Assembly (NCBI GenBank): GCA_016235815.1 | Contig: JACRIM010000011.1 | Span: 1 to 53,023 of the forward strand | Reading direction: 5' to 3' | DNA: 53,023 nucleotides | DNA from: Planctomycetota bacterium | GTDB taxonomy: Bacteria > Planctomycetota > Phycisphaerae > UBA1845 > UTPLA1 | Part shown: positions 4,059 through 23,826 of the stretch, piece after piece | Numbering within the stretch: position 1 is the stretch's first letter | Layout of the letters: each line of letters begins with the position of its first letter | Program-made: the position numbers and the translations under genes | The notes under the pieces: model-generated | The model's input: the letters and a program-made list of their open reading frames with translations, nothing else | What the model was told of the DNA's origin: nothing | Database searches by the model: none

Positions 4059-4412
4059 TGGGTACTCCGATGAGTGTCTTGATTTCACCTGGGGCTGCTG
4101 CCGGGGGCTCAGCTCTTTCGCCCCTACAGGGCTTTGGTTTTTTCTCTTCCGTGCAACCGAGGGCTTACGCCCTCGGCTATTGGCTATCGCCCCTTCGGGG
4201 CTCGAATATGCAGAGGCATGTTTCTCTCTCGACACGCTCCGTCGCCCCTATCGGGGCTTTGTTGCTCGCGCGATTTCTTTCCACGGGGTCTCCTAGGCGA
4301 CTCTTCGACTCGCGCCCGTGGCTACGGTCCTTCGCCCCTTCGGGGCTTTGGTTTTTTCTTCCGTGCAACCGAGGGCTTACGCCCTCGGCTATTGGCTATC
4401 GCCCCTTCGGGG
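4059..4412. repeat. REP-like palindrome field, distal part, with two ~85-bp direct repeats
   Basis: This gene-free region holds two near-identical blocks, 4117-4202 and 4331-4414. Each contains GCCCC-N-GGGGC, a GGTTTTTT run, the hairpin CCGAGGGC-TTAC-GCCCTCGG, and a second GCCCCTTCGGGGC hairpin; they differ mainly by a 2-bp indel. Between them lies a block (4230-4322) that repeats 2808-2892. The stems with T-rich segments look terminator-like, but their dispersed, repeated nature fits REP/BIME elements better. They separate the phosphoesterase and ruvB ends and could still attenuate transcription. Confidence 0.65.
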
Positions 4413-4514
4413 CTATTGGGTGTCGAACAATCCCAGCACTATTGCGAGTCGAGCAATCCCAGCACTATTGCGAGTCGAACAGTCCCTGCGCTATTGCGTG
4501 TCGAACAATCCCTG
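4413..4514 (-). repeat. Four-copy 26-bp tandem repeat across the ruvB stop codon
   Basis: Read on the minus strand, the last seven codons of ruvB plus its TAG stop, with 2 extra nt, are repeated four times at an exact 26-bp period (4491-4514, 4465-4488, 4439-4462, 4413-4436). Each unit reads roughly CNGGGAYTGYTCGACWCNCAATAG. Because 26 is not a multiple of three, only the first copy is translated. The stop codon is duplicated in every unit. Confidence 0.8.
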
Positions 4515-6169: not shown

Positions 6170-6900
6170 GCGACGGCCTCCGCGATGCGAGGCTTGAGGA
6201 CTTGAGGCTTGAGGCGCGCGCGACGCGCGGATGCCATGGTGCCGAGCGAACCCGCTTCCTTACGGGCGCGGCTCGGATTTTTGGCGCGGCTCGGATTTTT
6301 GGCGCGGCTCGGATTTTTGGCGCGGCTCGGATTTTTGGCGCGACTCGGGTTTTTGGAGCGGCTTTGAAATTGGGCGCGGCTCTGATCAATGCCGGCCTTG
6401 TGGAGCATGGAGGCGCACCAGGCGATGGCGAGGGCGTCGGCGACGTCGGGCGGCTCGGGGATTTTGCCGAGGCGCAAGGTGGAGGCGATGGTGCGCTGCA
6501 TCTGCGGTTTCGTGGCGTGGCCGTTGCCAGTGAGCATCTTCTTGACGCGCGTTGGGAGAATGTTCAGCACGTCCACGTTGCGGCGGGCGGCGGCGAGGAT
6601 GGCGACGCCGCGGGCGTGGCCCATGAGGATGGCGGTGCGCGGGTGTTTGTAATGGGCGAAGAGGTCTTCGACGGCCATGAGGTCGATGGCGTGGTCGGCG
6701 AGAACTTCATCGAGGCCGGTGGCGAGTTCGACGAGGCGGCGCGGGAGAGGGAGCTTTGGATTTGTGCGGATGACGCCGGCATCAAGGACGCGAACGGCGG
6801 GAAAGGCGATGACGGCGTAACCCGTGCGATCCAGCCCCGGGTCGATTCCGAGGATGAGTCGCGGGAGGCGAGGGGCGGATTGGATTATTCCACGCGCCAT
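6166..6900 (-). CDS. ruvC: Holliday junction resolvase RuvC with repeat-derived C-terminal tail
   Basis: RuvC is the RNase-H-fold endonuclease that resolves Holliday junctions. The catalytic core is intact: GIDPGLDRTG (first Asp), AVEDLF (Glu), and PPDVADALAIAWC (last Asp pair). At 244 residues it is about 60 longer than usual. The extra C-terminal part is low-complexity: repeated KNPSRA hexapeptides, then a dispersed-element peptide (SRARKEAGS), then an LKPQVLKP repeat. In the DNA this corresponds to a 29-bp dispersed repeat at 6248-6276 plus six more copies of its 10-bp end at an 18-bp period. It overlaps the cysS 3' end by 16 nt and ruvA by 4 nt. The tail is basic and could affect DNA affinity, but no function is shown. 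Confidence 0.94.
   Translation of the reverse strand: MARGIIQSAPRLPRLILGIDPGLDRTGYAVIAFPAVRVLDAGVIRTNPKLPLPRRLVELATGLDEVLADHAIDLMAVEDLFAHYKHPRTAILMGHARGVAILAAARRNVDVLNILPTRVKKMLTGNGHATKPQMQRTIASTLRLGKIPEPPDVADALAIAWCASMLHKAGIDQSRAQFQSRSKNPSRAKNPSRAKNPSRAKNPSRAKNPSRARKEAGSLGTMASARRARLKPQVLKPRIAEAVA
6248..6276 (-). repeat. 29-bp dispersed palindromic element, copy 1 (in ruvC)
   Basis: This copy differs at two positions from the exact pair at 20060 and 31580. On the minus strand it is read in the same frame as the pfaA copies, giving SRARKEAGS in place of SRDRKGAGS. It lies beyond the RuvC catalytic core. Confidence 0.85.
6267..6384 (-). repeat. 18-bp-period expansion of the element's end in ruvC
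   Basis: The 10-mer CGCGGCTCGG (plus-strand reading) recurs at 6267, 6285, 6303, 6321, 6339 (one change), 6357 (degenerate) and 6375 (one change), always exactly 18 bp apart. Between the copies the spacer is mostly ATTTTTGG. The unit codes for KNPSRA on the minus strand. The first copy is the terminal 10 bp of the 29-bp dispersed element, so the array seems to have grown out of it. Confidence 0.85.
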
Positions 6901-10218: not shown

Positions 10219-13200
10219 TTAGCCCATGACGATGCGTAATCCAAAGTCCGTCATCTCGTAGATGATAACACCGTCCACGGAGAGGAAGCCGTTGGCCATG
10301 ATCATCGGCGTGGGGCCGTCTTCGCGGCGAGTGATCGTCGCCGTCACCTCGACTCTCTTGTTTTTGGGGATGACCTGGCCGCGATAAATCCACGAATGCT
10401 TCATACCGACGGCGATGGGTTCGAAGCGGTGCGACTCGGCGAGGCCTGGCCAGCGGTCGAGGGCGTAGGCCTTGAGCAACTGCAACAGGGCTTCGAGGCC
10501 GAGCGAACCGGGCCAGACCGGGTCCTGGTAGAAGTGGGCCTTGAAGAACCATGCGTCGGGATTCACGTCGATGCTGCCGGCGATGTAGCCGAGATGGTGC
10601 GGCCCGCCGTCGGGGAGGAGGCAGTCGACGCGGTCCACCATGCGGAAGGCGCGGGCGGGGAGCGCGGCGGAAAGCGGCGTCGCATAATCCGGCGCTTCAT
10701 CGGGCGTATGGGGTGGAAGGTCGGGAAGCGTGAAGCGCTTCGCGGTTGCGCCTTCATTTGGCGAGGGGTTCCAAATGCGCTGCGCGGCGTCGCGGACGCC
10801 GATCTGCTGGGCGAGTGCTGAGGCAGAGAAGAAGCCGAAGGATGTGTCGCCTTCGTAAACCACGCGATCGCCGCGAAGCACCTGCATGTCGAATTTCTCG
10901 ATGATCATGCCGCCGGCGCTGGAGACGCTGGTGAGGCGGACACGCGTGCGAAGCGTGCCACAGTCGGGACCGATCTCTTCGTGGAGCGTGGCCGTGCCGC
11001 CGAGGTTGCGGAAGGAAAGATCGGTGTTGCTGGTCAATGCCGAGCCGCAGTAGGCCGCGAGGAAGCCGCAGGGTTGCAGGGCGATTTCCAGCAAGACGGC
11101 AAAGGGCATCGTGGTCTGTCGATTCGCGGCAAAGTACCACGCGTCGGGCGGCACATCGTATTCGGCGTCCATCCAGTCGCCGGCCGCAAGGACGAACGGC
11201 GGTTGTCGCACGGCAGCCACGCGGTCGAGGAATTGATACGGCGGACCGGGCAGGCGGGCGATGCGGCGGTCGCGGTCGAATACGCGGTATGCGGGACCGA
11301 AGCAGTCGGAGGGGTTGCCGATGGCGAAGGAGAGGATTTGGTTCGCAGTGAAGGCGGGTTGGGGAGTAGAGGGAACGGGGAACCCGCCCAGGCGGGTCTT
11401 CGACGGGGAACAGGGAACAGAATCAGAGGCACTTAGGCACTGAGGCACAGAGGCACGAAGGGGAGGATGAGGTTGCTGCGCAACGTGGTCCGAAATAGGC
11501 GCGGTCCGCACAGCGGACCCTACATGGTTCCACAACGCTTCAACTGTGTCCCGCGTCAACCCCGTCATCTGCATCGACATGTTTTTCATTTGCACGATGG
11601 GGCGGCCGTCGGCGGACATGAGGGCGTCGGCGAGGACGTATGGCTCGGGGCGGTAGCCGGCTTCCTTGATTTCAATCTGGTAAGTGACCTTCTTTGACAA
11701 CGGCGTGACCGGCCCGCGGCAGCGCAGGCTGCTGGCGACGCCGGGGATCGGTTCGTAGGCGACCGAGTCCGCATCGCCGACCCAGCCCATGCGCAGGAGG
11801 AAGAATCGCAGGGCATGGGCGCAGCATTCGTACATCAGCGTGCCGGGCATGACCATGTCGTCGACGAAGTGGCAGGTGAGGAACCAGTCGTCGGGATGGA
11901 TGTCGGCCTCGGCGACGACCATGCCGAGACCATAGCGGCCGCCTTGCGCGTCGAGTTCGAGGACGCGGTCGATGAGCTTCATACGGCCATCGGGGAGGCG
12001 GAGCGGGTTTGCGATGTCTAGCCGGGCGAAGTCGCCGCCGAAGCAGGCAGCGAGGTCGCCTTGGCGCAAGGCGGTGAGGCGGGCGTCGTCGTAATGCGAA
12101 TCGACTGGCGCAGTATTGGCTATGAGCACGGGCCAGGCGAAATCGTGCGCGGTGGCTCCTTTTTGGTCCGCAAGTTCTTCGGGGGTTTGCACGATGCCGT
12201 GCGAGTTTTCGATTTCCTGTTTCGTGAAGAAGCCGGCGCAGCCGTTTCGCATGGTGAGGACGGGTGAGCTGTCGATGGTGCCGTCGAACTCGAAGAAGAA
12301 GAGATAGGTGCCGCCCTGCCGCACGAAGCGGTCGATGCGAATGTCGTAGCGAATCGTCTCCCCGGGGCGCGGCAGGCCGCGATGGAATTGGACGGTGGCA
12401 TCGAGCAGGCGATACGTGCGCTCGCCCTTTGCAACGAAGTCGATGCCGAGGTAGCCGGAGAGGAAGAGGTCGGCCTGGCCGGCTTCGACGGTGATGCAGA
12501 TCGGGCAGCGGTCGCCGTCGAGATACCAGGCGCCGGGAAGGACGTCGTGTTCGGTGACGAGGCGACCGCGCGTGAGCGAGCCTTTCTCGCCTTCGACGGT
12601 GAGAATGCGATCGCAGAGCATGAGCGGTTCGTCGGGCAGGCGCACGCGGGCGGAATATGTGTCGATGATGGCGAACTCGGGGCCGAGGACGTTGGCGACT
12701 TTTCCGCGGGCGAATTCGAGGCAGGCGGCGCGGTTGAAGGCGGGGGGAGGAGAGGGAACAGAAATAGAGGGAACAGGGAACAGGGAACGGGGAACAGGAG
12801 TTGAGGCACTAAGGCACTGAGGCACTAAGGCACTAAGGGGAGGAAGGGGTTGCTGCGCAACAGTTTTCAATGATTGCGCGGACATTGGGTCGCTTAATGC
12901 CGCACCTAATAATTCGGATTGGACGGTTAGGAGACTGGACAGGCCTTCTGTCGCGGTTTGCGAGAAGCGGAGGAAGGCTTCGTGGGCGGAGTTTGCTGAG
13001 GGAACAGGGAACAGCGAATGGGGAACGGAGTCAGAGGCACTGAGGCACTGAGGTAATAAGGCACTAAGGGGAGGTGGGGGTTGCTGGGCAACGTGTTGCG
13101 AATTGGCGATGGTCCGCACAGCGGACCCTACTACTTGAGTCCTGAGTCTTGAGTCTTGAGTGGACATGGTCGGTCCAGCGGACCCTGCGAGTTGATCGGA

Positions 13201-16200
13201 CAGTGTTAACGGGCCGAGTTGGTGGCCTATGGGGATGCGGATAGTGCGGGTATTCGCGTTCAGTGCATTCGCGGCGGCGGGCGGTTCGTCGGCGTAGAGC
13301 GCGGCGAGGTTGACCGGGATGTGGTGGGCGATGAGGCGGCCGAGGAGTTTGAGCGTGGAGAGGTACTCGTTTTCCCCGCGCGCGGACATCGAGAAGGCGG
13401 CGTGAGGACGGCCGTCGAGGATGCGGCGGATCATGCGGGTGCAACTGGCCTGCGGGCCGACTTCAATGAAGACACGGACGCCGTCGGCGTAGGCTTGTTC
13501 GATGACGGCGGGGAATGAGAAGCCGTGGCGGGCGTGGTTGAGAATGGAATCGGCGGCGGATTCGGTGGTGACGTCATAACTGCGGGCGGCGGTGGAACTG
13601 TAAAAACGAACATTTGCGGGCGGCGTGGTGCGAAGCAGGTGGAAGTCGCGGTAGGCGGCTTCGACGGATTGCAGCGCGTCGCAGTGGACGGTGGGCACGC
13701 CGGGGAGCGGGATGGCGCGGCAGCGGAGGCTGGCCACGACCTGCTCGACATCGCCACGCAGGCCGCCGACGACGCACTCTTTCGGGGTATTCACGATGAG
13801 GAGTCGGGCGCGGGGCGCGGCTGCGAGTGCGTTGCGTACATCGTCGGGCGAGCGCGGAATGAGGACGACGTGCCACTCGGGCGGCACATCGGCGGGCAGG
13901 CCCCATGAGTTGCGCAGGGAATTGCGCGTCCCGGCGAGATCGGTGGCGAAGAGCGGCGACGAGAACATGCGGCGGTGCATTTCGTCGCGGTCGGGCCAGG
14001 CGCGCATGGCAAAGAGGCCGGCGGATTCACCGAGGCTGTAACCGATGACGGCGTTCGGTGAGACGCCGAGCGAGCGGAGAATGTCGGTTGCGAGGACGCC
14101 GAACGACACCTGGCCGAAGATGGTGCAGCGCATGTCCAGCGCGGCGGCGGCTTCGGAGTCTTCTCGCCAATCGTCGGGCCAGTCGAGACGATGCGGGGCA
14201 AACCAGCGCGGGAGCAGTTGATCGCGGAGTCGGGCGGACTCGGCGTCGAGGGTGCTGACGACGTGCGGGAAGTGGACGGCGAGGTCTGCGCCCATTCCGG
14301 CAAAATAGTTGCCCGCGCCGGGATAGACGAAGGCGAGTTTGCCGGGTTGGTCGATTGATTGCGGCGAATAGTACACGCCGGGGATGGCGTCGGCGGATTC
14401 GCCGGGGCGCGACCGCAGATGGTCAGTGAGTTGACGAAGACGCTCGCGCAGTTCGCCGGTATCCGTGGCAACGAGGGCGGCGGAGAACTGTTCGGCGAAA
14501 TCAAGTGGATGCGCGTGCAACCATGCGCGGGCGGCGGCATTCAGCGAGGCGTGTGGCGCGGCGAGATGGGCGTCGAGGGCGGCGAGTTGATGCGTGAGTG
14601 CGTCGGCGCTTGCGGCGGTGATGGCAAAGAGCGCTGCGGGTCGGACGACGGCGGGCGACGCAACCGCGGCGGTAGGCGATTCGCGAAGGACGATTGATGC
14701 ATGATTGCCGTCGGCGGTGGCGGCGTGAACGGTTGCGCGGCGCGGACCATCGGCGCGATTGCGAAGCCAGGCGAGGGCTTGCTTCGGGGCGTGGGCGCGG
14801 TCGGCGAGCTGCGAGCGGATTTCGTCGGGCAGTGCGTCGTCGGGCGTGGGCGGGAGGATGGCGTGGTGCAGACAAAGCGCGGCTTTGACTATGGCGGCGA
14901 GGCCGGACGCGGAGCCGGTGCGACCGATGGTTGCGGTGAGGGTTGAGAGGGCGACGGGGTCGGAGTTTGCGCTTATGGCGGAAGCGATGGAGTCGGTCGG
15001 GCCGGACCATTCGATGAAATCGGCGGCCGGCACGATCTCATTGCCATCCCAGACGGCGTAGATTCGGTCGCCGTCGCGCGTCGCGTTGGCGAGGCGCTTG
15101 AGGATGACGGTGCATGCGCCGTCGCCGAAAGGCGTTCCGTCGTGCCGCGATGTTGACACGACATTGCGAAGGTCGGCGGCCATGTCCACCGCGCCGACGA
15201 TGGCGGCGTCGAGTTCGCCGCGCCCGACAGCGCGGGCGGCGATCTCAAAGGCCTTGAGGCCGGACGCCTCTTCGCAGGAGACGGCGAAACTGGGGCCGCC
15301 GAGCTGACACTCGCGGGCGATGCGGCTGGCGATCATGCCGCCGAGCGCGCCGAGGACGCGCGGGGCGTCGAGGGCGGGACCGGCGGCGTCGCAAAGTTCG
15401 TCGGTCCAGGTCGCGAGTTCGTCGTCGGTGAGATTGAGTTCGAGTGCGTCGGCCCACTGGCGGGCGCGGCCGCGGATCCACCAGCGGAGGTGGAAGTTGG
15501 TGGTGTCGAAATCGAGGGCCATGCCGATGACGACACCGACGCGCGGGCGGCGCTCGCGAAGCGGGAGATTGGCGTCGGCAAGGGCGGCGGCGACGGATTC
15601 GAGGGCGACGAGTTGTTGCGGCAGGGCCGCGGGGAGTTCGTTCGGGGGGATTCGGTACTTGCCGACGGGGATTTCGATTTCGTCGATGCTTGCGGCGGCT
15701 TGTGGTGCCATGTGTGCGGCACCGAATGCGTCGCAGCCGTACCAGCGGTCGGGCGATGGCGGATGGATGGCGGTGCGGTTGTTAAAGATAGCGTGTTGGA
15801 AGTCGTGCAGGCACGTGATGGAGCCGAAGCGGGCATCCATGCCGACGATGGCGACGGGTTCCGGGTGCGCCGGTGTGTGTTCGACAATCGCGGGCCGTGA
15901 GGATGGGCCAGTCCATTCTTCGATGAGGACATGCGCGTTGATGCCGCCGAATCCGAAGGCGCTGATGGCGGCACGGCGCGGGGTTTGGTCATCGCGGCGG
16001 TGCCACGGATGAGGCACGGATTGAACGCGGAAGGGGCTGCCCTCGAGCGGGATGACACGGGCCGGGCGCGTGAAGTTGGCCGAGGGGGCCAGCGTCTCGT
16101 GACGCATGGCGAGGAGCGTTTTGATCAACCCTGCCGCGCCGGCGGCGGTGAGGAGGTGGCCGATCATGGATTTGACGGAGCCGATGGGGCATTGGCCGGT

Positions 16201-17268
16201 GCGGGCTACGACGCGTTCCCAGAGGGTGCGCAGGCTGGCGACTTCGATTGCGTCGCCGATGGGTGTGCCGGTTCCGTGGCACTCGATGCAATCGACGGCG
16301 TCGGGGGACCAGCCGGCCTGGGCGTAGGCATCGTGCATGGCGCGAAGCTGGCCCTCGCTGTCGGGGGCAAGCAGGCTGCCGCCGATGTCGTTGGAGAGGC
16401 CTATGCCGCGGATGACAGCGGTGATTCGGTCGCCGTCACGCAGGGCGTCATCGAGGCGCTTGAGGACGACGAGGCCTGCGCCTTCACCGACGATGAGGCC
16501 GTCGGAGGATTCATCGAATGGCGAGCACCGGCCGGTGCGCGAGAGGGCGCGGAGTTGGGTGAATCCCATCTGCGTGTAGAGGCATTCGGGGCGGGAAACG
16601 CCGCCGGCGAGCATGATGTCGGCGCGGCCTTCGGCGAGTTCGTCGCAGGCGAGTTTGACGGCGTAGAGCGAACTTGCGCAGGCGGCGTCGAGGGTGTAGC
16701 TGCCGAGGCCGAGGCGCAATGCCTTCGCGATAATCGCTGCTGGGAGCGCGGTGACTCGGCCGTTGAGCGGGTGCGGGATTTCTTCAATGAGTGATTCAAT
16801 CGCGGCGCGGCGATGCGGTTGCGCGGCATCGGCGAGGCGCGTGAGAAGTTCGCGGCCAAGCGTGGCGCGGGTGATTGCCGATGATCCGTCGGTGGGCAAG
16901 GCGATGGCGGCGAGGATGACGCCGGTGCGCGCGCGGACGGTGTCGGATATTTTCGCATCGTCGATGGCTGAGCGAGCGGCTTGCAATGCGATTGAATAAA
17001 GCGGGTCGAGTTGGTCGAGCAGGCCGGCGTCGATGTCGAGGCCGGAGAGATTCGGCGTGAAGGGATCGACGAAGCAGCCGCGGAGGGAGTAGACCTTGTC
17101 GGGGAGCGGGCCGTCGGCGAGCGCATCACGCGGCGGGAGGATCCAGCGGCCGGACGGCACGTCGCGGGTCTGATCGCGTGCTTCGACGAGGTTGGCCCAG
17201 AAGGCGTCGAGCGTCGTCGCGCCGGGGAATACCCCGCCCATACCTATGATGGCGATCGGCGTTCGCAT
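10219..17268 (-). CDS. pfaC: PfaC-like PUFA/secondary-lipid synthase subunit (KS-CLF-AT-DH-DH)
   Basis: A 2349-residue iterative synthase subunit. Domain order: an active ketosynthase (about 1-450; Cys197 in DAACASS, His in CHGTGTP and GHLLTAAG); a second ketosynthase-like domain (about 470-890) in which the catalytic Cys aligns with Glu667 (SCEEASG), i.e. a chain-length factor; an acyltransferase (about 990-1340; GAGNYFAGMG and Ser1078 in GYSLGES), PfaB-like; then two FabA-like dehydratase didomains with catalytic-type halves at His1800 (CHFVDDMVMPG) and His2245 (AHFYQDPVWPG). Three interdomain linkers (about 1360-1430, 1459-1512, 1913-1972) are built from a dispersed repeat. No ACP and no terminal acyltransferase are present, so it must work with the adjacent PfaA-like protein. 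It starts 15 nt after the pfaA stop, indicating one operon. The product is unknown. Confidence 0.9.
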   Translation of the reverse strand: MRTPIAIIGMGGVFPGATTLDAFWANLVEARDQTRDVPSGRWILPPRDALADGPLPDKVYSLRGCFVDPFTPNLSGLDIDAGLLDQLDPLYSIALQAARSAIDDAKISDTVRARTGVILAAIALPTDGSSAITRATLGRELLTRLADAAQPHRRAAIESLIEEIPHPLNGRVTALPAAIIAKALRLGLGSYTLDAACASSLYAVKLACDELAEGRADIMLAGGVSRPECLYTQMGFTQLRALSRTGRCSPFDESSDGLIVGEGAGLVVLKRLDDALRDGDRITAVIRGIGLSNDIGGSLLAPDSEGQLRAMHDAYAQAGWSPDAVDCIECHGTGTPIGDAIEVASLRTLWERVVARTGQCPIGSVKSMIGHLLTAAGAAGLIKTLLAMRHETLAPSANFTRPARVIPLEGSPFRVQSVPHPWHRRDDQTPRRAAISAFGFGGINAHVLIEEWTGPSSRPAIVEHTPAHPEPVAIVGMDARFGSITCLHDFQHAIFNNRTAIHPPSPDRWYGCDAFGAAHMAPQAAASIDEIEIPVGKYRIPPNELPAALPQQLVALESVAAALADANLPLRERRPRVGVVIGMALDFDTTNFHLRWWIRGRARQWADALELNLTDDELATWTDELCDAAGPALDAPRVLGALGGMIASRIARECQLGGPSFAVSCEEASGLKAFEIAARAVGRGELDAAIVGAVDMAADLRNVVSTSRHDGTPFGDGACTVILKRLANATRDGDRIYAVWDGNEIVPAADFIEWSGPTDSIASAISANSDPVALSTLTATIGRTGSASGLAAIVKAALCLHHAILPPTPDDALPDEIRSQLADRAHAPKQALAWLRNRADGPRRATVHAATADGNHASIVLRESPTAAVASPAVVRPAALFAITAASADALTHQLAALDAHLAAPHASLNAAARAWLHAHPLDFAEQFSAALVATDTGELRERLRQLTDHLRSRPGESADAIPGVYYSPQSIDQPGKLAFVYPGAGNYFAGMGADLAVHFPHVVSTLDAESARLRDQLLPRWFAPHRLDWPDDWREDSEAAAALDMRCTIFGQVSFGVLATDILRSLGVSPNAVIGYSLGESAGLFAMRAWPDRDEMHRRMFSSPLFATDLAGTRNSLRNSWGLPADVPPEWHVVLIPRSPDDVRNALAAAPRARLLIVNTPKECVVGGLRGDVEQVVASLRCRAIPLPGVPTVHCDALQSVEAAYRDFHLLRTTPPANVRFYSSTAARSYDVTTESAADSILNHARHGFSFPAVIEQAYADGVRVFIEVGPQASCTRMIRRILDGRPHAAFSMSARGENEYLSTLKLLGRLIAHHIPVNLAALYADEPPAAANALNANTRTIRIPIGHQLGPLTLSDQLAGSAGPTMSTQDSRLRTQVVGSAVRTIANSQHVAQQPPPPLSALLPQCLSASDSVPHSLFPVPSANSAHEAFLRFSQTATEGLSSLLTVQSELLGAALSDPMSAQSLKTVAQQPLPPLSALVPQCLSASTPVPRSLFPVPSISVPSPPPAFNRAACLEFARGKVANVLGPEFAIIDTYSARVRLPDEPLMLCDRILTVEGEKGSLTRGRLVTEHDVLPGAWYLDGDRCPICITVEAGQADLFLSGYLGIDFVAKGERTYRLLDATVQFHRGLPRPGETIRYDIRIDRFVRQGGTYLFFFEFDGTIDSSPVLTMRNGCAGFFTKQEIENSHGIVQTPEELADQKGATAHDFAWPVLIANTAPVDSHYDDARLTALRQGDLAACFGGDFARLDIANPLRLPDGRMKLIDRVLELDAQGGRYGLGMVVAEADIHPDDWFLTCHFVDDMVMPGTLMYECCAHALRFFLLRMGWVGDADSVAYEPIPGVASSLRCRGPVTPLSKKVTYQIEIKEAGYRPEPYVLADALMSADGRPIVQMKNMSMQMTGLTRDTVEALWNHVGSAVRTAPISDHVAQQPHPPLRASVPQCLSASDSVPCSPSKTRLGGFPVPSTPQPAFTANQILSFAIGNPSDCFGPAYRVFDRDRRIARLPGPPYQFLDRVAAVRQPPFVLAAGDWMDAEYDVPPDAWYFAANRQTTMPFAVLLEIALQPCGFLAAYCGSALTSNTDLSFRNLGGTATLHEEIGPDCGTLRTRVRLTSVSSAGGMIIEKFDMQVLRGDRVVYEGDTSFGFFSASALAQQIGVRDAAQRIWNPSPNEGATAKRFTLPDLPPHTPDEAPDYATPLSAALPARAFRMVDRVDCLLPDGGPHHLGYIAGSIDVNPDAWFFKAHFYQDPVWPGSLGLEALLQLLKAYALDRWPGLAESHRFEPIAVGMKHSWIYRGQVIPKNKRVEVTATITRREDGPTPMIMANGFLSVDGVIIYEMTDFGLRIVMG
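11350..11535 (-). repeat. Composite palindromic repeat, linker copy 3 (between DH1 and DH2)
   Basis: On the minus strand this copy contains, in order: a GTAG-footed hairpin (11503-11523; arms GGTCCGC/GCGGACC, loop TGT), the GTTGC-N3-GCAAC hairpin (11472-11484), a run of TGCCTCAG/TGCCTAAG-like 10-mers (11427-11459), and a GGGAACA-type stretch. A further palindrome, CCCGCC-TG-GGCGGG on the minus strand (around 11383-11396), interrupts the last part. Read in frame it gives GSAVRT...HVAQQP...PQCLSASDSVP and an extra KTRLGG. Confidence 0.8.
12740..12892 (-). repeat. Composite palindromic repeat, linker copy 2
   Basis: This copy lacks the GTAG-footed hairpin but has the GTTGC-N3-GCAAC hairpin (12849-12861), four to five GGCACTAAG/GGCACTGAG 10-mers (12803-12838) and the GGGAACAGGGAACGG stretch. 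In frame it encodes TVAQQPLPPLSALVPQCLSA and then FPVPS. It lies between the AT region and the first dehydratase didomain. Confidence 0.8.
12985..13195 (-). repeat. Composite palindromic repeat, linker copy 1 (after AT)
   Basis: This copy has all parts: the GTAG-footed hairpin (13111-13131; arms GGTCCGC/GCGGACC), GTTGC-N3-GCAAC (13080-13092), the GAGGCACT 10-mers (13034-13070) and the GGGAACAG stretch. On its 5' side (minus strand) it carries ACTCAAG/AGTCTTG short direct repeats (13132-13160) and a degenerate second hairpin at 13172-13187. The frame stays open and reads GSAVRT...HVAQQPPPPLSALLPQCL. Confidence 0.8.
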
Positions 17269-17283
17269 GAAACAATCTCTGAC

Positions 17284-20200
17284 TCAAATGCTCGCGGCGG
17301 CCTTGCGGAAGGCGGCGCGGAGGGACGGATCGGCGGTGCATTCGTAACCTTCGATTCGGGCGACGACGGCGGCGTCGAGATCGAAGAAGGTTACGTCGCA
17401 GGTCATTTTCTTTTGGGTGTGGTCGGTGACTTCCAGCACGGCGGTGACGCCGTCGCGCGGGAAGGACGTGCGGAACTGGCGATAGGAGCCGAGGGCGCTG
17501 GGCAGGGAGACCATGCCGAGTTCCTCGAAGCACCAGAGGATGGCCAGTTGGAATGCGGAATCGATGACGAGCGGGTCGGTGAGCCAGTCGCTGCGGAGCG
17601 GGTTGGCCATCCACTGCGCAGGCGCGGGGGCCGTGCCGACGAGGGCGACGATTCCGCCGGAGGACCAGCCGTCGACCTTCTGAATGCCGCGGAGGTCTTT
17701 GCCGTGGAAGAGGATTTCGGAATAGGCGGCGCGGAGATCTCGCGGATATTTTTGCAAGGCGACGGCGTCGGAATAGGGAATGGCCGGTGCGGGGGCGGGC
17801 CTGGAGCCGAGGATCACGGTGGCCGATGCGTAAACGACTTCGCGGGCTTGATCGTCATGACCGCGCATTTCGACGTTGACGAAGAACTGCGAATCCTTGC
17901 GGCGCGGGTCGCCGACGTGGAAGGCGAGTGTTGTGTCGGCGGCATCGACGGCCACGCCTCGGAGGACGCGCACGGCATCGAGGCCCTGAAGTCGCAGGCC
18001 GGGGTGGGCGTGCATGGCGGCGTGGGCCATCCACTCCATGCTCATCGCGAGCGGCAATACGGGGCGACCGCCGAGGACGTGCGAGCGGAGGAAGGTGTGG
18101 CTTGCGAGATCGAGTCGACGCTCGAAAGCGAAGTGCATTGTCGCGGCTGTTGGTGCCGGCGCGGGCGGCGCGATGGTTGGTTCGGGGAAGCCGGCGCCGA
18201 GGATGACTTCGATGCCTTCGCCGGTGTTGGCGAGTTCTTCCACGAGGGCGGCCGCGCCGGATTCGAGCGGGATGAGATCGATTCCCTGTCGCACGAATTC
18301 GCGCTTGAGCGATGGGCCGACCATTCCGCCATCCCAGGGACCCCAGTTCAACGAGCGGACTCGGCAATCGGGAAGGCTGATGGAAAGGCGGTGCGCGATC
18401 TTGTTGAGCGATTCGTTGGCGACAGCGTAGTCGGACTGGCCGCGATTGCCGAAACGGGCGCTGACGGAAGAGAAGAAGATGACGTTTCGCAATTCGCCGG
18501 GGTTGACGGCGGCGAGGAGGTTTCGCAGGGCGACGATCTTCGTGTCGAAAACGCGGTCGAATTGCTCGGGGGTCTTGTCGGCAATGAGGCGATCTTCCAG
18601 CACGCCGGCGGCGTGAATAAGGCCAGTGACGGGGCCGAGGGCGGCGGAGACTTCGGTAACCACGCGCTTGATGGCGACGATGTCGCGAACGTCGACGCTG
18701 CGATAGAGGACCTGTGCGCCGGCGTCGGTCATGCGGGCGAGGTTGCGCTGCACCTCGCGATTGGCCATGTAGCGGATGTAGGCGGCTTGAAGGTCGGCGG
18801 CTTTGGGTTTTTCGCGGCCGGCGAATTCGTTTGTGAGGATGGCCTGCTTGATGTCAGATTCGGATTCGAGTGGAGCGAGCCACGATGGCTCGGGCGTCGG
18901 CGCGGGTGAACGGCCGAGGAGAATCAGGCGCGGGCGGGCGGCGCGGGCGAGGGCGACGGCGGTTTCAGCGGTGACACCGCGTGCGCCGCCGGTGATGAGG
19001 ATCACGTCGCGGTCGGTGATGTCGAGCGGAGCGGTTCGCGTGGAAAGCGCGTCGAGTCGGAGGCCGCGGCGCGAGTCGAGGCCGAGAGCGACTTCCAACG
19101 GGCCGGGCGCGGCGAATTCGCGCAGCAAGGAATCGGTAATTGCGTCGATGTCGAGCCAGGCGGCGTCCACGTCGATGGCTTTGCACGTCACGCCGGGCCA
19201 CTCGTGGGCGGCGGTTTTGGCAAGGCCGGCGAGGCCGCCGTGGGCGGGTTCATGATCGCGACCAAAGAGGCCGAACGCGCCGTCCATGCGGGTGATGGTG
19301 GCGAAGAGTGCGCCGCCGGTGGCGACTGAGGATTGCAATGACTTTGCGGCGGACTTGGCGATGGCGAATGCGGACTTCAGAAATTGCTCGGCTTGGAGGG
19401 ACCAGAGGGCATCGGAGCCGGCACGGCGCGGGGCAACGATGATGAGGCCGGCGCAATGAGGAAAGGCGGACGGCGGATTTCGGATGTCGATCAGCGAGGC
19501 CGCGAAACCCATTGCGCTCAATCGCGCGGCCAGGGTTTTTGATAGGTCTGTGCCGTCGTCGGTAATTCCGATGGATGAGCCGGGCGCGAGACTGAGCGGT
19601 GCAGCGTGAAGCGCGGGGAGGTCGATGAGGCTGAGGACTCGGCGTTCGACGGGTCTTGCGGCGATGCGCGGCTGGGGGCGCGGGGCATCGACTATGCGAG
19701 CGGGCGAAGGCGTTGGCGTGACTATTAGCGCGTCGGACTTTGTCGAACGCGAGGTGCAGTAGTCGACGATCTGCTGGAGCGTGCGGAGGCTGCCCATGTA
19801 GTCGGGCTGGACCGTAGGCATTTCGGGAATGCGGGCCTCGACACCGGCGAGGATTTCGACGCGCTTGATGGAGTCGATGCCGAGGTCGGCTTCCATGTCC
19901 ATGCCGAGTTCGAGCATTTCGCGGGGGTAGCCGGTGAGTTGGGCAACGACGTCGAGGAGGGTGTCGGAGAAGGCGGCGGTGGAGAGGTTGCCGGCACGAT
20001 GCGGATCATTTGTGTCAGGCAATTCCGGTTCGGGTACCAGTTTCACTTCGGCAATTTGAGAACCCGCTCCCTTACGGTCGCGGCTCGGATCGGTTGCTCC
20101 GGAATCGATGAAGGTGACGATTTCGGCGAGGGTGCGGATGCTGCCCATGTATTCGGGCTTGATGCCGGTGAAGCCGGGGATTCGCTCTTCGACGGCGGCG

Positions 20201-23200
20201 ACGATTTCGACGCGTTTGATGGAGTCGATGCCGAGGTCGGCCTCGATGTCCATGGAGAGGTCGATCATATCGCGGGGGTAGCCGGTCTTTTCGCAGACGA
20301 CATCGAGTACGACGGCGGCGTTGTTTATGTCGGAGGTTGCGGGCGGCGCACTTGCCGACGGGGAAATAGATGGGCGCGGCGATTCCGCTTTCGATGGCGG
20401 CGGCGCGACGGGAACAACGGGCGGCGCGATCGGCGCGGGCGGAGCCATCACCGGCGCTGATGCCTTTTGCACAATCACGCTGGGTGCCGGCGAAGGTAAT
20501 GGTTGAGGGATCGGCGCAGGCTGCGCGATCATCGGCGCGGCGATGCTCATCGGCTGTGCCATTCCGCCGGAAAGCAGTCTGTGCTGATTCTCGATGAGCA
20601 ACTGTATCGAGCGGTGGGCCTGTTCCTGGCTTTCCAGGAATCGCTGATGGGCGGCGGCGGTTTGCTGCTGGAGCGCCTGCATGGCCTGCAGGCCTTCCTG
20701 CACGATGCGCATGGCTTCGACGAGAGCGGGCGTGGGCTGCGGAGCGGGGGATGGCGGCGGCTTGGGTTGGCTCATCGGAGGCGAATTCACGTTCTTCGAT
20801 TGAAATTCAGCGGCAGTTGGTTTCTCGGTCGGTACGCTTAAGGTATCAGTCGTGCGCAATTCCATTGGCGCGGGTGCAATTACATCATGTTCACGACCTT
20901 TGCGTATCTCGGAGTTTACCGAACCCGCTCCCTTACGGTCGCGGCTCTGTTGTGCAGGATCGCGACTCTGAGTAAGGGTCGCGGTGGCCGGCTCCAATGC
21001 AGCGCGCGGGGCGCGATAGTTCGCGCCGACGAGCGGCACGATCATGCGAGGCTTCCGCGGCTGGACGGAGGGCTTCTCCCACTTCTCAAGTTCCACTGCG
21101 CGGCCTTCGGCGGCAAGGCGGCAGAGGCAGCGCGCCAAATCGGCGACGCCGCTTCGCTTTCCCGCCGAGGCGTCCACCGCGATGCAGCGTGTGCCACGGC
21201 GATCCAGGATCGCATCGGCGAGGCCGGTCAGCACTGATTTCGGGCCGACTTCGATGAAGGTTCGCGCCCCGGAATGATACAGGGTTTCGATCTGGCCCAC
21301 GAAATCGACGGGTTCGAGCAGTTGGCGGCCGAGGAGTGCGCGGGCGGACGCGGCGTCGGATGGATAGGGCTTGGCGGTGGATGTGGCGACGACCGGGATT
21401 CGCGGGGCGAGAAACTCAACGGATTCCAACGCCTGGCGGAACGGTGCGACGGCCGACTCCATCAGGCGGCTGTGGAATGCGCCGGAGACGTTTAACTGGG
21501 TTGCGGCAATGCCGCGCTGCTTGCAAAGATCGACAGCGCGGGCGATCTCGGCGCGGTCGCCGGAGAGAACGCCCTGCGTCGGCGAATTGCGATTGGCGAG
21601 GATGACATCGAGCGAACCATCGGCGATCAATCGTTCAATCTCGCCGAGCGGGGCTTTGACGGCGAGCATCGTGCCGCGATCGCCGTCGCCTGCGGCCATG
21701 AGTCGACCGCGAAGTCGCGACAGGTGATGCAGCGATGATTCGTCGAAGACGCCGGCGGCAAAGAGCGCGACGAGTTCGCCGTAGCTGTGGCCGGCGGCGA
21801 GGTCGGGTTTCACGCCGAAGCGCCGGAGGACATCGGCCATGCCAAGCGCGATCGCACCCAGCGCGGGCTGGGCGATGTCGGTGCGCGTCAACGCTTGTGC
21901 CTGGCGCTCGCGCAGGGCTTCATCAAAGGTCGGCGTTGGATAGACGGCGGTGTTGATTCGGGTGTCCGCTGTCTCGGCGGCGGCATCGGCGCGGGCGAGT
22001 GCAGCCTGCATTTCGGGGAAGGTGCAGGCAAGTTCGCGGGCCATGTCCACATGCTGCGAGCCCTGGCCGGGGAAGAGGAAGGCGACCAAGCCTTCGGCGG
22101 GGCCGGAGCCGTAATAGGTGTTCGTGACGGACCAACTCGCTTGGCCGGCATTTGAGAGCAGACGACTCGACGCTTGTTCGAGTTGTTGCGAGAGCGCGGC
22201 CGCCTCTTCGACGACGAGAAGCAACCGATGCGGCCTTGACGCATCAAAGGCGCGGCGGGATTCGGCGGCGTGCCATGCGAGGCTGCGATGATCGAACCAC
22301 TCGTCTGCGACACGCTTCTGCCATTCGCTCAGGTTCGCTTGCAACCCGTCGATCGTGTCGGCCGAGAGGGCGATGATCTCCACGCTGCCGTCCCAGGCGG
22401 GTTCGGGAAGCGTGGCTTCGTGTTCTTCGAGGACGGCGTGGAAGTTGCTGCCGCCGAAGCCGAAGGAACTGACGCCGGCGCGGCGCGGGGACTCCCCCAC
22501 CGTCAGCCACGGGCGCATGCGCGTGTTCAGGAAGAACGGGCTGTCCTCGATGGCCATCTTCGCATTCGGCGCATCGACCTTGATCGTCGGTGGGAGGGCG
22601 CGGTGATAGAGGGCGAGCGCGGTCTTGATGAGGCCTGCTGCGCCGGCGGCGGCTTTGGTGTGGCCGATCTGTGATTTAACCGAGCCGAGGGCGCACCATG
22701 TGCCGTCGGGCGCGGCTTCGCGGAAGACGGTTCGCAAGGCATCGAACTCAACGGCGTCGCCTACTTTGGTGCCGGTGCCGTGTGCTTCGATGAGTGTGAT
22801 GCTGTCCGGGTCGACGTCGGCCAACTCATACGCATTGCGAAGGGCGCGGGCCTGACCTCCGGCGTGCGGGGCGTAAATGCTTTGCGAACGGCCGTCGCTG
22901 GACGTGCCCATGCTTCGGATGACGGCGTAGATGCGGTCGCCGTCGCGCTGGGCGTCGGGCAGGCGCTTGAGCACCAACATGCCGATGCCTTCGCCGAGGA
23001 CCGTGCCGTCGGCGGAATCCGCGAAGGGCCGGGCGTCGCCGGTGGGCGACAGCGCCGGTGTCTTGCTGAAGCACATGTACATGAAGATGTCGTTGAGCGT
23101 GTCGACACCACCGGCGATGGCCATGTCGCTGCGGCCGGTAGCGAGTTCGAGCATCGCAAGATGCACGGCGGAGAGTGAACTGGCGCAGGCCGCGTCGACG

Positions 23201-23826
23201 ACGCAGTTCGTGCCTCGGAGATTCAGGCGATTGGCGATGCGCCCGGCGACGACATTTCCGAGCAGGCCGGGGAAGGAGTTCTCCTGCCAGCCGACGTAGC
23301 CATCGGCGATGCGGACAACGACATCCTCAGCGACGTCGGGATCAACGCCGGCTTCGGCGAGCGCTTTTCGCCAGACGGGGTGGCCAAGCCGCGCACCGAG
23401 AGGGAGAGCCAGTTCCTGCAAACCAGTGATGCCGAGGATGACGCCGACGCGCTCGCGATTGAACTCGCGGCTTTCGCCGTAACCCGCATCCTCCAGCGCC
23501 CGCTTAGCGATGACGAGGCCGAGGAGTTGAGAGGTATCCGTCGCTTCGAGGATGGTCGGCGGGATGCCGAATTCGGTCGGGTCGAAGGGCACCGGCGGGA
23601 TGAAGCCCCCGCGATGGCAATAGGTCATGTCGGGCGTTTTGGGGTCGGCGTCAAAATAGTCGCCGATGCCCCAGTGCGTGGCAGGGGTGTCGGTGATTCC
23701 GTCGCCGCCGGTGCGGAGGAGGCGCCAGTATTCTTTCAGGTCGCGCGCCTTTGGGAACATGCATCCCATGCCGATGATGGCAATGGGGGTGGCCTGCGGC
23801 CCCGCGCCTTTTGCTCGCTTGCTCAC
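17284..23826 (-). CDS. pfaA: PfaA-like PUFA/secondary-lipid synthase subunit (KS-AT-ACP-ACP-KR-DH)
   Basis: A 2180-residue iterative polyketide-type synthase. Domain order: ketosynthase (about 1-450; Cys214 in DAACASS, His in AHGTGT and GHTKAAAG); malonyl-type acyltransferase (about 555-860; Ser681 in GHSYGE, later GAFHSRL); a long Pro/Ala/Gln linker; two acyl carrier proteins with phosphopantetheine serines Ser1202 and Ser1319 in LGIDSIKRVEI; ketoreductase (about 1605-1860; TGGARGVT, Tyr1800 in SDYAVANE); and a PKS-type dehydratase (His1916 in HVLGGRPVLP, Asp2089 in LVIDSAF). The start is GTG at 23826 with AGGA about 8 nt upstream. Two ACPs is fewer than most PUFA synthases. Two copies of a 29-bp dispersed element lie in its linkers. 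Together with the PfaC- and PfaD-like proteins it should build a polyunsaturated or otherwise modified acyl chain. Confidence 0.92.
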   Translation of the reverse strand: MSKRAKGAGPQATPIAIIGMGCMFPKARDLKEYWRLLRTGGDGITDTPATHWGIGDYFDADPKTPDMTYCHRGGFIPPVPFDPTEFGIPPTILEATDTSQLLGLVIAKRALEDAGYGESREFNRERVGVILGITGLQELALPLGARLGHPVWRKALAEAGVDPDVAEDVVVRIADGYVGWQENSFPGLLGNVVAGRIANRLNLRGTNCVVDAACASSLSAVHLAMLELATGRSDMAIAGGVDTLNDIFMYMCFSKTPALSPTGDARPFADSADGTVLGEGIGMLVLKRLPDAQRDGDRIYAVIRSMGTSSDGRSQSIYAPHAGGQARALRNAYELADVDPDSITLIEAHGTGTKVGDAVEFDALRTVFREAAPDGTWCALGSVKSQIGHTKAAAGAAGLIKTALALYHRALPPTIKVDAPNAKMAIEDSPFFLNTRMRPWLTVGESPRRAGVSSFGFGGSNFHAVLEEHEATLPEPAWDGSVEIIALSADTIDGLQANLSEWQKRVADEWFDHRSLAWHAAESRRAFDASRPHRLLLVVEEAAALSQQLEQASSRLLSNAGQASWSVTNTYYGSGPAEGLVAFLFPGQGSQHVDMARELACTFPEMQAALARADAAAETADTRINTAVYPTPTFDEALRERQAQALTRTDIAQPALGAIALGMADVLRRFGVKPDLAAGHSYGELVALFAAGVFDESSLHHLSRLRGRLMAAGDGDRGTMLAVKAPLGEIERLIADGSLDVILANRNSPTQGVLSGDRAEIARAVDLCKQRGIAATQLNVSGAFHSRLMESAVAPFRQALESVEFLAPRIPVVATSTAKPYPSDAASARALLGRQLLEPVDFVGQIETLYHSGARTFIEVGPKSVLTGLADAILDRRGTRCIAVDASAGKRSGVADLARCLCRLAAEGRAVELEKWEKPSVQPRKPRMIVPLVGANYRAPRAALEPATATLTQSRDPAQQSRDRKGAGSVNSEIRKGREHDVIAPAPMELRTTDTLSVPTEKPTAAEFQSKNVNSPPMSQPKPPPSPAPQPTPALVEAMRIVQEGLQAMQALQQQTAAAHQRFLESQEQAHRSIQLLIENQHRLLSGGMAQPMSIAAPMIAQPAPIPQPLPSPAPSVIVQKASAPVMAPPAPIAPPVVPVAPPPSKAESPRPSISPSASAPPATSDINNAAVVLDVVCEKTGYPRDMIDLSMDIEADLGIDSIKRVEIVAAVEERIPGFTGIKPEYMGSIRTLAEIVTFIDSGATDPSRDRKGAGSQIAEVKLVPEPELPDTNDPHRAGNLSTAAFSDTLLDVVAQLTGYPREMLELGMDMEADLGIDSIKRVEILAGVEARIPEMPTVQPDYMGSLRTLQQIVDYCTSRSTKSDALIVTPTPSPARIVDAPRPQPRIAARPVERRVLSLIDLPALHAAPLSLAPGSSIGITDDGTDLSKTLAARLSAMGFAASLIDIRNPPSAFPHCAGLIIVAPRRAGSDALWSLQAEQFLKSAFAIAKSAAKSLQSSVATGGALFATITRMDGAFGLFGRDHEPAHGGLAGLAKTAAHEWPGVTCKAIDVDAAWLDIDAITDSLLREFAAPGPLEVALGLDSRRGLRLDALSTRTAPLDITDRDVILITGGARGVTAETAVALARAARPRLILLGRSPAPTPEPSWLAPLESESDIKQAILTNEFAGREKPKAADLQAAYIRYMANREVQRNLARMTDAGAQVLYRSVDVRDIVAIKRVVTEVSAALGPVTGLIHAAGVLEDRLIADKTPEQFDRVFDTKIVALRNLLAAVNPGELRNVIFFSSVSARFGNRGQSDYAVANESLNKIAHRLSISLPDCRVRSLNWGPWDGGMVGPSLKREFVRQGIDLIPLESGAAALVEELANTGEGIEVILGAGFPEPTIAPPAPAPTAATMHFAFERRLDLASHTFLRSHVLGGRPVLPLAMSMEWMAHAAMHAHPGLRLQGLDAVRVLRGVAVDAADTTLAFHVGDPRRKDSQFFVNVEMRGHDDQAREVVYASATVILGSRPAPAPAIPYSDAVALQKYPRDLRAAYSEILFHGKDLRGIQKVDGWSSGGIVALVGTAPAPAQWMANPLRSDWLTDPLVIDSAFQLAILWCFEELGMVSLPSALGSYRQFRTSFPRDGVTAVLEVTDHTQKKMTCDVTFFDLDAAVVARIEGYECTADPSLRAAFRKAAASI
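20060..20088 (-). repeat. 29-bp dispersed palindromic element, copy 2 (between the two ACPs of pfaA)
   Basis: Identical over 29 bp to the copy at 31580-31608. On the minus strand its core CCGCGACCGTAAGGGAGCGG can fold as an 8-bp stem with a tandem G-A mismatch and a GTAA loop. It is read as PSRDRKGAGS in the linker joining ACP1 and ACP2. Confidence 0.9.
20921..20949 (-). repeat. 29-bp dispersed palindromic element, copy 3 (upstream of the pfaA ACPs)
   Basis: One base different from the copies at 20060 and 31580. It is read in frame as QSRDRKGAGS between the acyltransferase and the first ACP. A shorter related stretch (SRDPAQQ) follows immediately at about 20955-20980 on the plus strand, suggesting a partial second copy or local duplication. 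Confidence 0.88.

Follow-up and report, generated by a model that had tools for sequence, protein, structure and literature searches.

The 53,023-nt stretch of DNA analyzed here (hereafter, the window) comes from a bacterium of the Planctomycetota (GenBank assembly GCA_016235815.1, JACRIM010000011.1) and corresponds to contig C52, one of the 60 that make up a 4.58-Mb genome. Its minus strand encodes a giant PfaC-like lipid synthase in which three interdomain stretches, designated linkers A, B, and C, are mosaics of genome-wide repeats. C, L, and G numbers denote our contigs, loci, and genomes, respectively.

The PfaC-like synthase and its repeat linkers

Pfam and NCBIfam searches delineated a synthase gene of one open frame, with two ketoacyl-synthase (KS) matches, an AT domain, and three FabA-like (DH) stretches in Pfam. 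KS, second KS/CLF, AT, and FabA-like domains, together with an adjoining PfaA-type gene, identify it as a PfaC-type synthase, and its named database relatives stem for the most part from planctomycete assemblies. The three repeat-built linkers, first pointed out in an earlier note on the letters of this DNA, are all contained in the single frame, as follows:

10219-17268, minus strand: PfaC-like synthase gene, single open frame of 2349 aa
12993-13198, minus strand: repeat linker A, residues ~1358-1425, after AT and before a conserved AHxAFLRFS helix
13134-13161, minus strand: 7-mer array CTTGAGT of linker A
13111-13131, minus strand: GTAG palindrome GTAGGGTCCGCTGTGCGGACC of linker A, read VGSAVRT
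13080-13092, minus strand: GTTGC-N3-GCAAC palindrome of linker A, read VAQQ
13034-13069, minus strand: 8-mer array of linker A
12999-13020, minus strand: 7-mer GGGAACR stretch of linker A
12871-12992, minus strand: non-repeat segment between linkers A and B, holding the helix conserved in orthologues (model helix 123-160)
12735-12870, minus strand: repeat linker B, residues ~1467-1512, immediately before DH1
12849-12861, minus strand: GTTGC-N3-GCAAC palindrome of linker B
12804-12838, minus strand: 8-mer array of linker B, TA variant
12768-12798, minus strand: 7-mer GGGAACR array of linker B
11350-11535, minus strand: repeat linker C, residues ~1912-1973, between DH1 and DH2
11503-11523, minus strand: GTAG palindrome of linker C, read VGSAVRT
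11472-11484, minus strand: GTTGC-N3-GCAAC palindrome of linker C
11426-11456, minus strand: 8-mer array of linker C
11371-11411, minus strand: 41-nt module of linker C, 7-mers with a nested ACCCGCC/GGCGGGT palindrome
17284-23826, minus strand: neighboring PfaA-type synthase gene (NCBIfam TIGR02813, 1522.9 bits; cut-off 1010.1)

The linkers span 136-206 nt and have in common the GTTGC-N3-GCAAC palindrome, an array of the 8-mer AGGCACTR (period 8), and 7-mers of the GGGAACR type; the GTAG palindrome is found in A and C but not in B, and CTTGAGT is a second 7-mer unit. Aligned to C over 121 gapless nucleotides, B shows 69% identity and A 80%. The GTAG hairpin and the GTTGC palindrome had been correctly recognized in the earlier note, whereas its 'GGCACTGAG-type 10-mers' proved to be the 8-mer array and its 'GGGAACAGG' stretches the 7-mers. 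Nor does its description as one composite palindromic repeat hold, the linkers being mosaics of which only some modules are palindromic. At the peptide level, the pattern VAQQP.PPL.A..PQCLSAS..VP was confirmed in all three linkers, and GSAVRT only in A and C. A search of the neighboring PfaA-type gene for the linker repeats returned no match.

None of the linkers has a stop codon in the frame used, and their six unused sense frames together have 11, a pattern with a 1.2% chance if stops are independent across frames, although two of the 11 form a TAGTAG pair. Scored against the codon usage of the genome, the linkers reach -0.33, -0.40, and -0.29 per codon as compared to +0.18 for the whole gene (standard deviation of 50-codon windows, 0.15), consistently with the previous impression that they do not resemble evolved coding sequence. 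An AlphaFold2 model of residues 1300-2349, built with 18 orthologues (predicted TM-score, 0.46), assigns a predicted local distance difference test (pLDDT) value below 50 to model residues 25-126, 161-206, 418-422, and 619-669. Three of these segments largely coincide with the linkers: A lies inside 25-126, B mostly in 161-206, and C mostly in 619-669; the DH domains mostly score above 80. The model thus suggests that the three linkers are probably disordered. As read from the DNA, they would probably be translated as three flexible spacers of ~45-70 residues, rich in Pro, Ser, and Ala. A known RNA family in the linkers was discarded, since the Rfam search returned no match at the gathering score and folding is ordinary, with linker B, like the bulk of A and C, folding no better than shuffled versions (z-scores of -0.04, -1.30, and +0.41).

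Dispersed repeats in the genome, in other genes, and in orthologous synthases

Searched genome-wide, the modules behave as dispersed repeats, far in excess of chance: GGTCCGC-N3-GCGGACC stems occur at 68 sites (control, 0), the 8-mer triplet yields 50 overlapping matches at 23 places (control, 1), and the GGGAACR triplet 30 matches (control, 0). The 7-bp units, and the 8-bp unit as well, are arranged head-to-tail at many places. The 8-mer is not private to this genome either, as it is present in 6 of 17 genomes of the family (24 matches in G012, and 8 each in G001 and G013). Its variant that makes TAG (YN = TA) accounts for both linker B matches and for none of the other 48.

We further scored these repeats in a 745-kb sample made up of the window, 20 stretches chosen around matches, and 19 at arbitrary places; the sample is therefore enriched for matches, and genes were called with a simple codon-score script that surely misses some. 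Besides the linkers themselves, which account for 3 of the 45 clusters matching them, 42 clusters lie outside the synthase gene: 34 outside predicted genes, 4 upstream of what looks like the start codon, 2 that overlap the end of a gene by no more than 7 nt, and 2 in frame. This distribution, along with the identity of one module as a repetitive extragenic palindrome (REP) with a matching transposase, supports the notion of intergenic-type repeats advanced earlier. In raw counts, GTTGC palindromes were located 11 times outside and 3 times inside predicted genes, and their stem covaries (14 GTTGC/GCAAC and 13 GTCGC/GCGAC pairs versus 3 mixed). Many composites follow a common order, that is, palindrome, CCCCTTCCTCCCC-like stretch, 8-mers, and 7-mers. 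The 41-nt module of linker C recurs in identical arrangement at three other genome places (L078, L083, and L141). For many repeat copies, the nearest contig end is ~2 kb away or less (for example, on C6, C22, C31, C34, C35, C48, C53, and C59), and the repeats may break the assembly.

In 17 larger intergenic composites, 48 of 51 same-strand frames are open, with 3 stops versus 19.8 ± 3.1 upon shuffling, and the antisense strand has 103 stops versus 51.7 in shuffles. Because array units are not independent, this stop-poverty is a property of the composites, not a test. Selection against stops in all repeat frames was dismissed, given that stops are not scarce when all six frames are summed and that the antisense strand is rich in them.

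The GTAG palindrome of the linkers is a REP. Both copies (13111-13131 and 11503-11523) consist of an unpaired GTAG followed by GGTCCGC-TGT-GCGGACC, and dispersed copies include inverted pairs (e.g., L071, L106, L168, and L246). At L246, a gene for a REP-associated tyrosine transposase (RAYT; NF047646, 190.7 bits; cut-off 80) has two identical GTAG-REPs on each side, which suggests that a RAYT moved the REP part of the linkers. An open frame beside this gene (L246:2032-2997) ends in VGSAVRTMNAS, its last codons seemingly supplied by the REP. An identical 21-nt GTAG-REP was also spotted near the PfaC gene of G003, a species of another genus (L037:2336-2356). The window has its own transposase gene (2095-2652; NF033573), which is of the IS200/IS605 type and not the RAYT of the genome; it was rejected as the REP mover, with no GTAG-REP nearby.

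The modules are not special to the synthase, as seven other genes of this genome have them in frame. Five of these were checked against their best-matching solved homologues, all of which lack the inserted residues: an error-prone DNA polymerase with modules in frame at two sites, urocanase (15 residues missing from the homologue), valyl-tRNA synthetase (9 residues), a GH13 amylase, and a Ser/Thr kinase whose Pfam match is split into two stretches. The remaining two, a cupin and a membrane protein with no Pfam match, in which the module is read from the other strand, were judged from the open frame only. On visual inspection, five genes hold in-frame 8-mers, at 8 of the 23 places; among the 7-mer places examined, in-frame copies were found in the synthase and the valyl-tRNA synthetase, and 15 REP sites examined out of the 68 include 3 in frame, in two genes. 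Four repeat-bearing open reading frames (ORFs; L071, L083, L097, and L104) were set aside by eye because the repeats are upstream of the apparent true start, and a long frame with GSAVRT (L179) was not counted since it looks antisense to a gene.

Comparison with PfaC relatives revealed that VAQQP, QCLSAS, and GSAVRT are absent from all 20 other full-length orthologues (best-segment identity, 40-60%; L010 was left out as a repeat of L009, judged on equal coordinates). Neither of the two findings that the earlier note had named as fatal to its reading, namely the same linker sequence in distant orthologues or a frameshifted gene, was encountered: no orthologue examined has the linker sequence and the frame is open in the assembly. 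The AT-DH1 segment of intact orthologues ranges from 41 to 291 aa, indicating that this site is tolerant of length.

Orthologues of two other lineages carry unrelated palindromes of their own genomes in the corresponding linkers. In G002 and G004, which belong to one genus other than that of the window genome and whose synthases are 83.5% identical in amino acids, VPQPQRGRGT is read in both the AT-DH1 and the DH1-DH2 linker. This peptide is encoded by the palindrome CCCCAGCCCC-N3-GGGGCNGGGG, present in 64 and 70 copies in these two genomes and in none in six others, including the window genome and G003, congeneric with G002 and G004. Between G002 and G004, the palindromes are identical at 28/30 and 29/30 positions, versus 61/90, 13/30, 74/90, and 55/90 in adjoining stretches. 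Among 12 other loci of this palindrome examined, one (L192) is convincingly in frame within another ORF, which has weak radical-SAM matches, all below cut-off. The second lineage is represented by G043, of another family in the same order, whose DH1-DH2 linker carries a CACTGGCGG...CCGCCAGTG hairpin (sequence CACTGGCGGGCAAGCCGCCAGTG); its arm ranks first in frequency among hairpin arms (7) in 155 kb sampled from that genome. The AT-DH1 linker of the G043 orthologue (L052) also has two exact GTTTCACGTGAAAC palindromes, both read DVSRET and with 0 copies in the 155 kb sampled elsewhere in G043; this palindrome resembles the parS core. The idea that PfaC linkers are generally enriched in long hairpins was discarded as weak (5 stems in 10,119 nt versus 22 in 117,897 nt elsewhere, 19 genes).

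Elsewhere in the window, we noted two full-length Acido-Lenti-1 RNA matches (4157-4202 and 4369-4414; 55.4 bits each), a 26-bp tandem repeat beside the second of them (4413-4512), two 18-bp arrays with GGCGCGGCTCGG in common (6265-6386 and 31594-31662), and an 8-bp TTTCGACT array (31670-31704) beside the latter.

IVP genes between inverted arrays

The polymerase insert turned out to be a complete element of 576 nt (L195:4522-5097, contig C28), in which a 23S_rRNA_IVP gene (PF05635, 112.4 bits; cut-off 33.8; its bAvd match is below cut-off) lies between inverted 8-mer arrays. The host gene encodes an error-prone DNA polymerase (NF004225, 1365.3 bits; cut-off 939). The IVP frame differs from that of the host, which stays open through all 192 codons of the insert, and the insert folds with a long terminal stem (z-score of -2.73, 20 shuffles). 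An S23/IVP gene between terminal inverted repeats is the layout of 23S rRNA intervening sequences (IVSs), and it is found here in a polymerase gene instead of a 23S rRNA gene. Linkers A-C are too short to contain such a gene, and no PF05635 match was obtained on C52.

The IVP gene within the polymerase led us to test the array flanks at other IVP loci, that is, 34 of 46 listed places in 16 genomes of the family (L202-L207 and L209-L236; L208 was left out and L223 was kept though below the family cut-off). Inverted flank arrays exceeded all 60 mononucleotide shuffles at 22 of these 34 loci, including the six tested in the window genome, compared to 4 in direct orientation and to 18 of 300 random positions of the window genome (Fisher, 2e-15). 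When a fixed score of 31 was required instead, 20 of the 34 loci passed, versus 1.4% of 500 window-genome positions and 3.6% of 500 positions around PfaC genes. Array units differ among IVP loci and are mostly 7 or 8 bp long, but they include AGGCACRA, GGGAACA, and GAGTCTT, which are the array units of the linkers; CTTGAGT of linker A flanks an IVP gene in the relative G013 (L216).

We extended the test to IVP genes on plasmids (L247-L258, 11 cyanobacterial and 1 of Gemmatirosa), chosen as 12 of 28 records by skipping near-duplicates, Riemerella, and shorter matches. Inverted arrays were evident in 10 of 12, and direct ones in 3 of 12. Random positions (10 of 300) and small genes (0 of 26) on three of those plasmids served as the comparison. 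The unit surrounding a Nostoc plasmid IVP gene (L247) is GGGAACA. Three of the cyanobacterial plasmid genes lie within CRISPR operons (L251, L253, and L254): two are flanked by cas6 and cas4, the third by cas10 and a Cmr3-type gene.

The inverted symmetry of the arrays argues that they are part of the element rather than its target. From these likenesses we infer that the 7/8-mer arrays of the linkers are solo ends of IVP elements (S23, four-helix bundle). Among the literature matches listed, with few subscription journals covered, we found no report of this association of IVP genes with arrays, and the search led only to the Coxiella heptamers. A tentative proposal, which may well not hold throughout, is that the dispersed 7/8-mer arrays of planctomycetes and cyanobacteria are the inverted ends of a little-described mobile element with a 23S-IVP/S23 (bAvd-like) gene, whose solo ends, alone or fused to REPs, would be a continuing, stop-poor source for the flexible linkers that lineages built independently in large enzymes, and whose complete copies can sit in frame in a coding gene.

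Origin of the repeat linkers

We consider it probable that preassembled genomic composites entered disordered, length-tolerant linkers of the synthase and were kept as the frame stayed open. Composite repeats would have been copied from elsewhere in the genome into permissive linkers; only open-frame insertions would survive, of which the sense strand of the repeats offers many, and the product would be a disordered spacer. The nested 41-nt module that linker C shares with three other places speaks for a preformed composite copied in.

The linker insertions would in that case be tolerated passengers and not selected parts. It is rather unlikely, in our view, that the synthase gains from linker length or flexibility and that repeats were recruited for it, even though the insertions are in linkers and not in domains, three lineages have unrelated repeats there, and the G002/G004 palindromes are better conserved than their surroundings. 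No particular length seems demanded of the AT-DH1 segment, identical repeats occur in unrelated enzymes, and conservation of the repeats could reflect gene conversion between copies. The statement that the synthase uses mobile repeats as interdomain spacers is upheld in that repeats form its linkers, but the word 'uses', with its implication of selected spacers, is not supported.

Less likely still is a local origin of the arrays by slippage in place, followed by copying between linkers with no outside insertion. Arrays are indeed prone to slippage, and both the identity of A and B to C and the REP-spacer-palindrome order common to A and C fit this explanation. However, it accounts poorly for units in matching module order at many other places, for the nested module of linker C at L078, L083, and L141, and for the dispersed GTAG-REP, which is not a slippage product.

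We regard as very improbable that pieces were joined through repeats during assembly, or that the gene is a pseudogene. The genome is in 60 contigs, and the nearness of many repeat copies to contig ends hints that repeats may break it, yet each of the three repeats is flanked by the correct domains, whose order and single frame are maintained across 7 kb; the three linkers differ from each other, the domains are intact, stops are missing from the used frame only, and a comparable case exists on the single contig of G002. Least credible of all is that mRNA processing excises or cleaves the inserts, as RNase III does with 23S rRNA IVSs, so that they never appear in protein: the IVP-type ends and long terminal stem of the polymerase insert and the IVS excision described for Coxiella (PMC4990558) recall such processing, but shuffled sequences fold just as well as linker B and the greater part of A and C, the published excision leaves rRNA fragments and would break an mRNA, and the frame remains open.

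Several observations weigh against insertion of preformed composites and against parts of its support. The module order shared by A and C makes copying within the gene possible too, and the linkers could in part derive from each other; the order REP, 18 nt, GTTGC is common to A and C and absent elsewhere in the 745-kb sample. A close empty site for linkers A-C was not seen, the genus being represented by one genome, and the linker hairpins of G001, G011, and G016 are not repeated in 69-80-kb samples. With the simple gene caller, exact REP stems are 6 outside and 5 inside predicted genes and GGGAACA pairs 8 outside and 7 inside; clusters appear mostly intergenic because upstream-of-start cases were set aside by eye. 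A strict automatic census found in frame only 2 of 23 8-mer places, 1 of 19 7-mer places, and 2 of 14 REP sites (one in the cupin); in the window plus 19 stretches, none of 5 REP sites was scored in frame, although its flank rule missed the copies of the synthase itself and the polymerase. Stop-poverty confined to one strand may be plain composition, low pLDDT can equally stem from lineage-specific inserts that lack alignment depth, and the spacers, read from DNA, are a candidate protein product. Finally, the link between arrays and IVP genes is an association, and linkers A-C have no IVP gene.

Insertion of preformed composites has partial precedents in known repeat systems. Cyanobacterial short tandemly repeated repetitive sequences (STRRs) are dispersed, mostly intergenic arrays of 7-bp units. 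Similar heptamer arrays, the TAACTGA repeats, are described in Beggiatoaceae (PMC4679880); here, the arrays also have 8-bp units and lie in frame inside conserved enzymes. According to Di Nocera et al. (2013, PMC3733652), GTAG REPs are intergenic in their majority, RAYT genes are flanked by their own REPs, families exist in Planctomycetes and Opitutus, and some copies lie inside genes, including DnaE2 and tRNA synthetases. Our GTAG-tagged palindrome shares these traits, that is, an intergenic majority, a REP-flanked RAYT, and intragenic copies, but it is joined here with 7/8-mer arrays and further palindromes, and no REP is present in linker B; the word 'polyketide' is absent from the main text of that paper. 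Taken together with PMC10969869, published intragenic REPs and Rickettsia palindromic elements (RPEs) include cases in DnaE2, tRNA synthetases, and a verrucomicrobium. Like RPEs (Ogata et al., as summarized there), the modules form genome-wide families found in frame in functionally unrelated genes and kept as extra peptide. The likeness is one of description, and the present case differs in phylum, in its modular mosaics with short tandem arrays, in having 2-3 insertions per gene in places, and in its parallel cases in related genera. As for IVSs, that of Coxiella (PMC4990558) has an S23/IVP gene between terminal inverted repeats, tandem heptamers upstream, and inverted ends cut by RNase III. 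Many IVP genes here similarly lie between inverted 7/8-mer arrays; known IVSs are in rRNA genes and excised by RNase III, whereas a polymerase gene hosts our complete element, and no IVP gene accompanies the arrays of linkers A-C.

In-frame REPs are therefore already known, and it is the arrays as spacers, the parallel invasion, and the IVP link that extend the known picture; repeat-built linkers in a lipid synthase are not reported among the literature matches listed, again with few subscription journals covered. Collectively, these data depict repeat DNA apparently becoming protein in a giant lipid synthase and in several housekeeping enzymes. Related genera offer independent parallel cases, through which the fates of repeat-derived peptides can be compared. 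The bracketing of many IVP/S23 genes by inverted short tandem arrays, seen in planctomycetes, in cyanobacteria, and on a Gemmatimonadota plasmid, would provide a mechanism by which heptamer repeats are dispersed.

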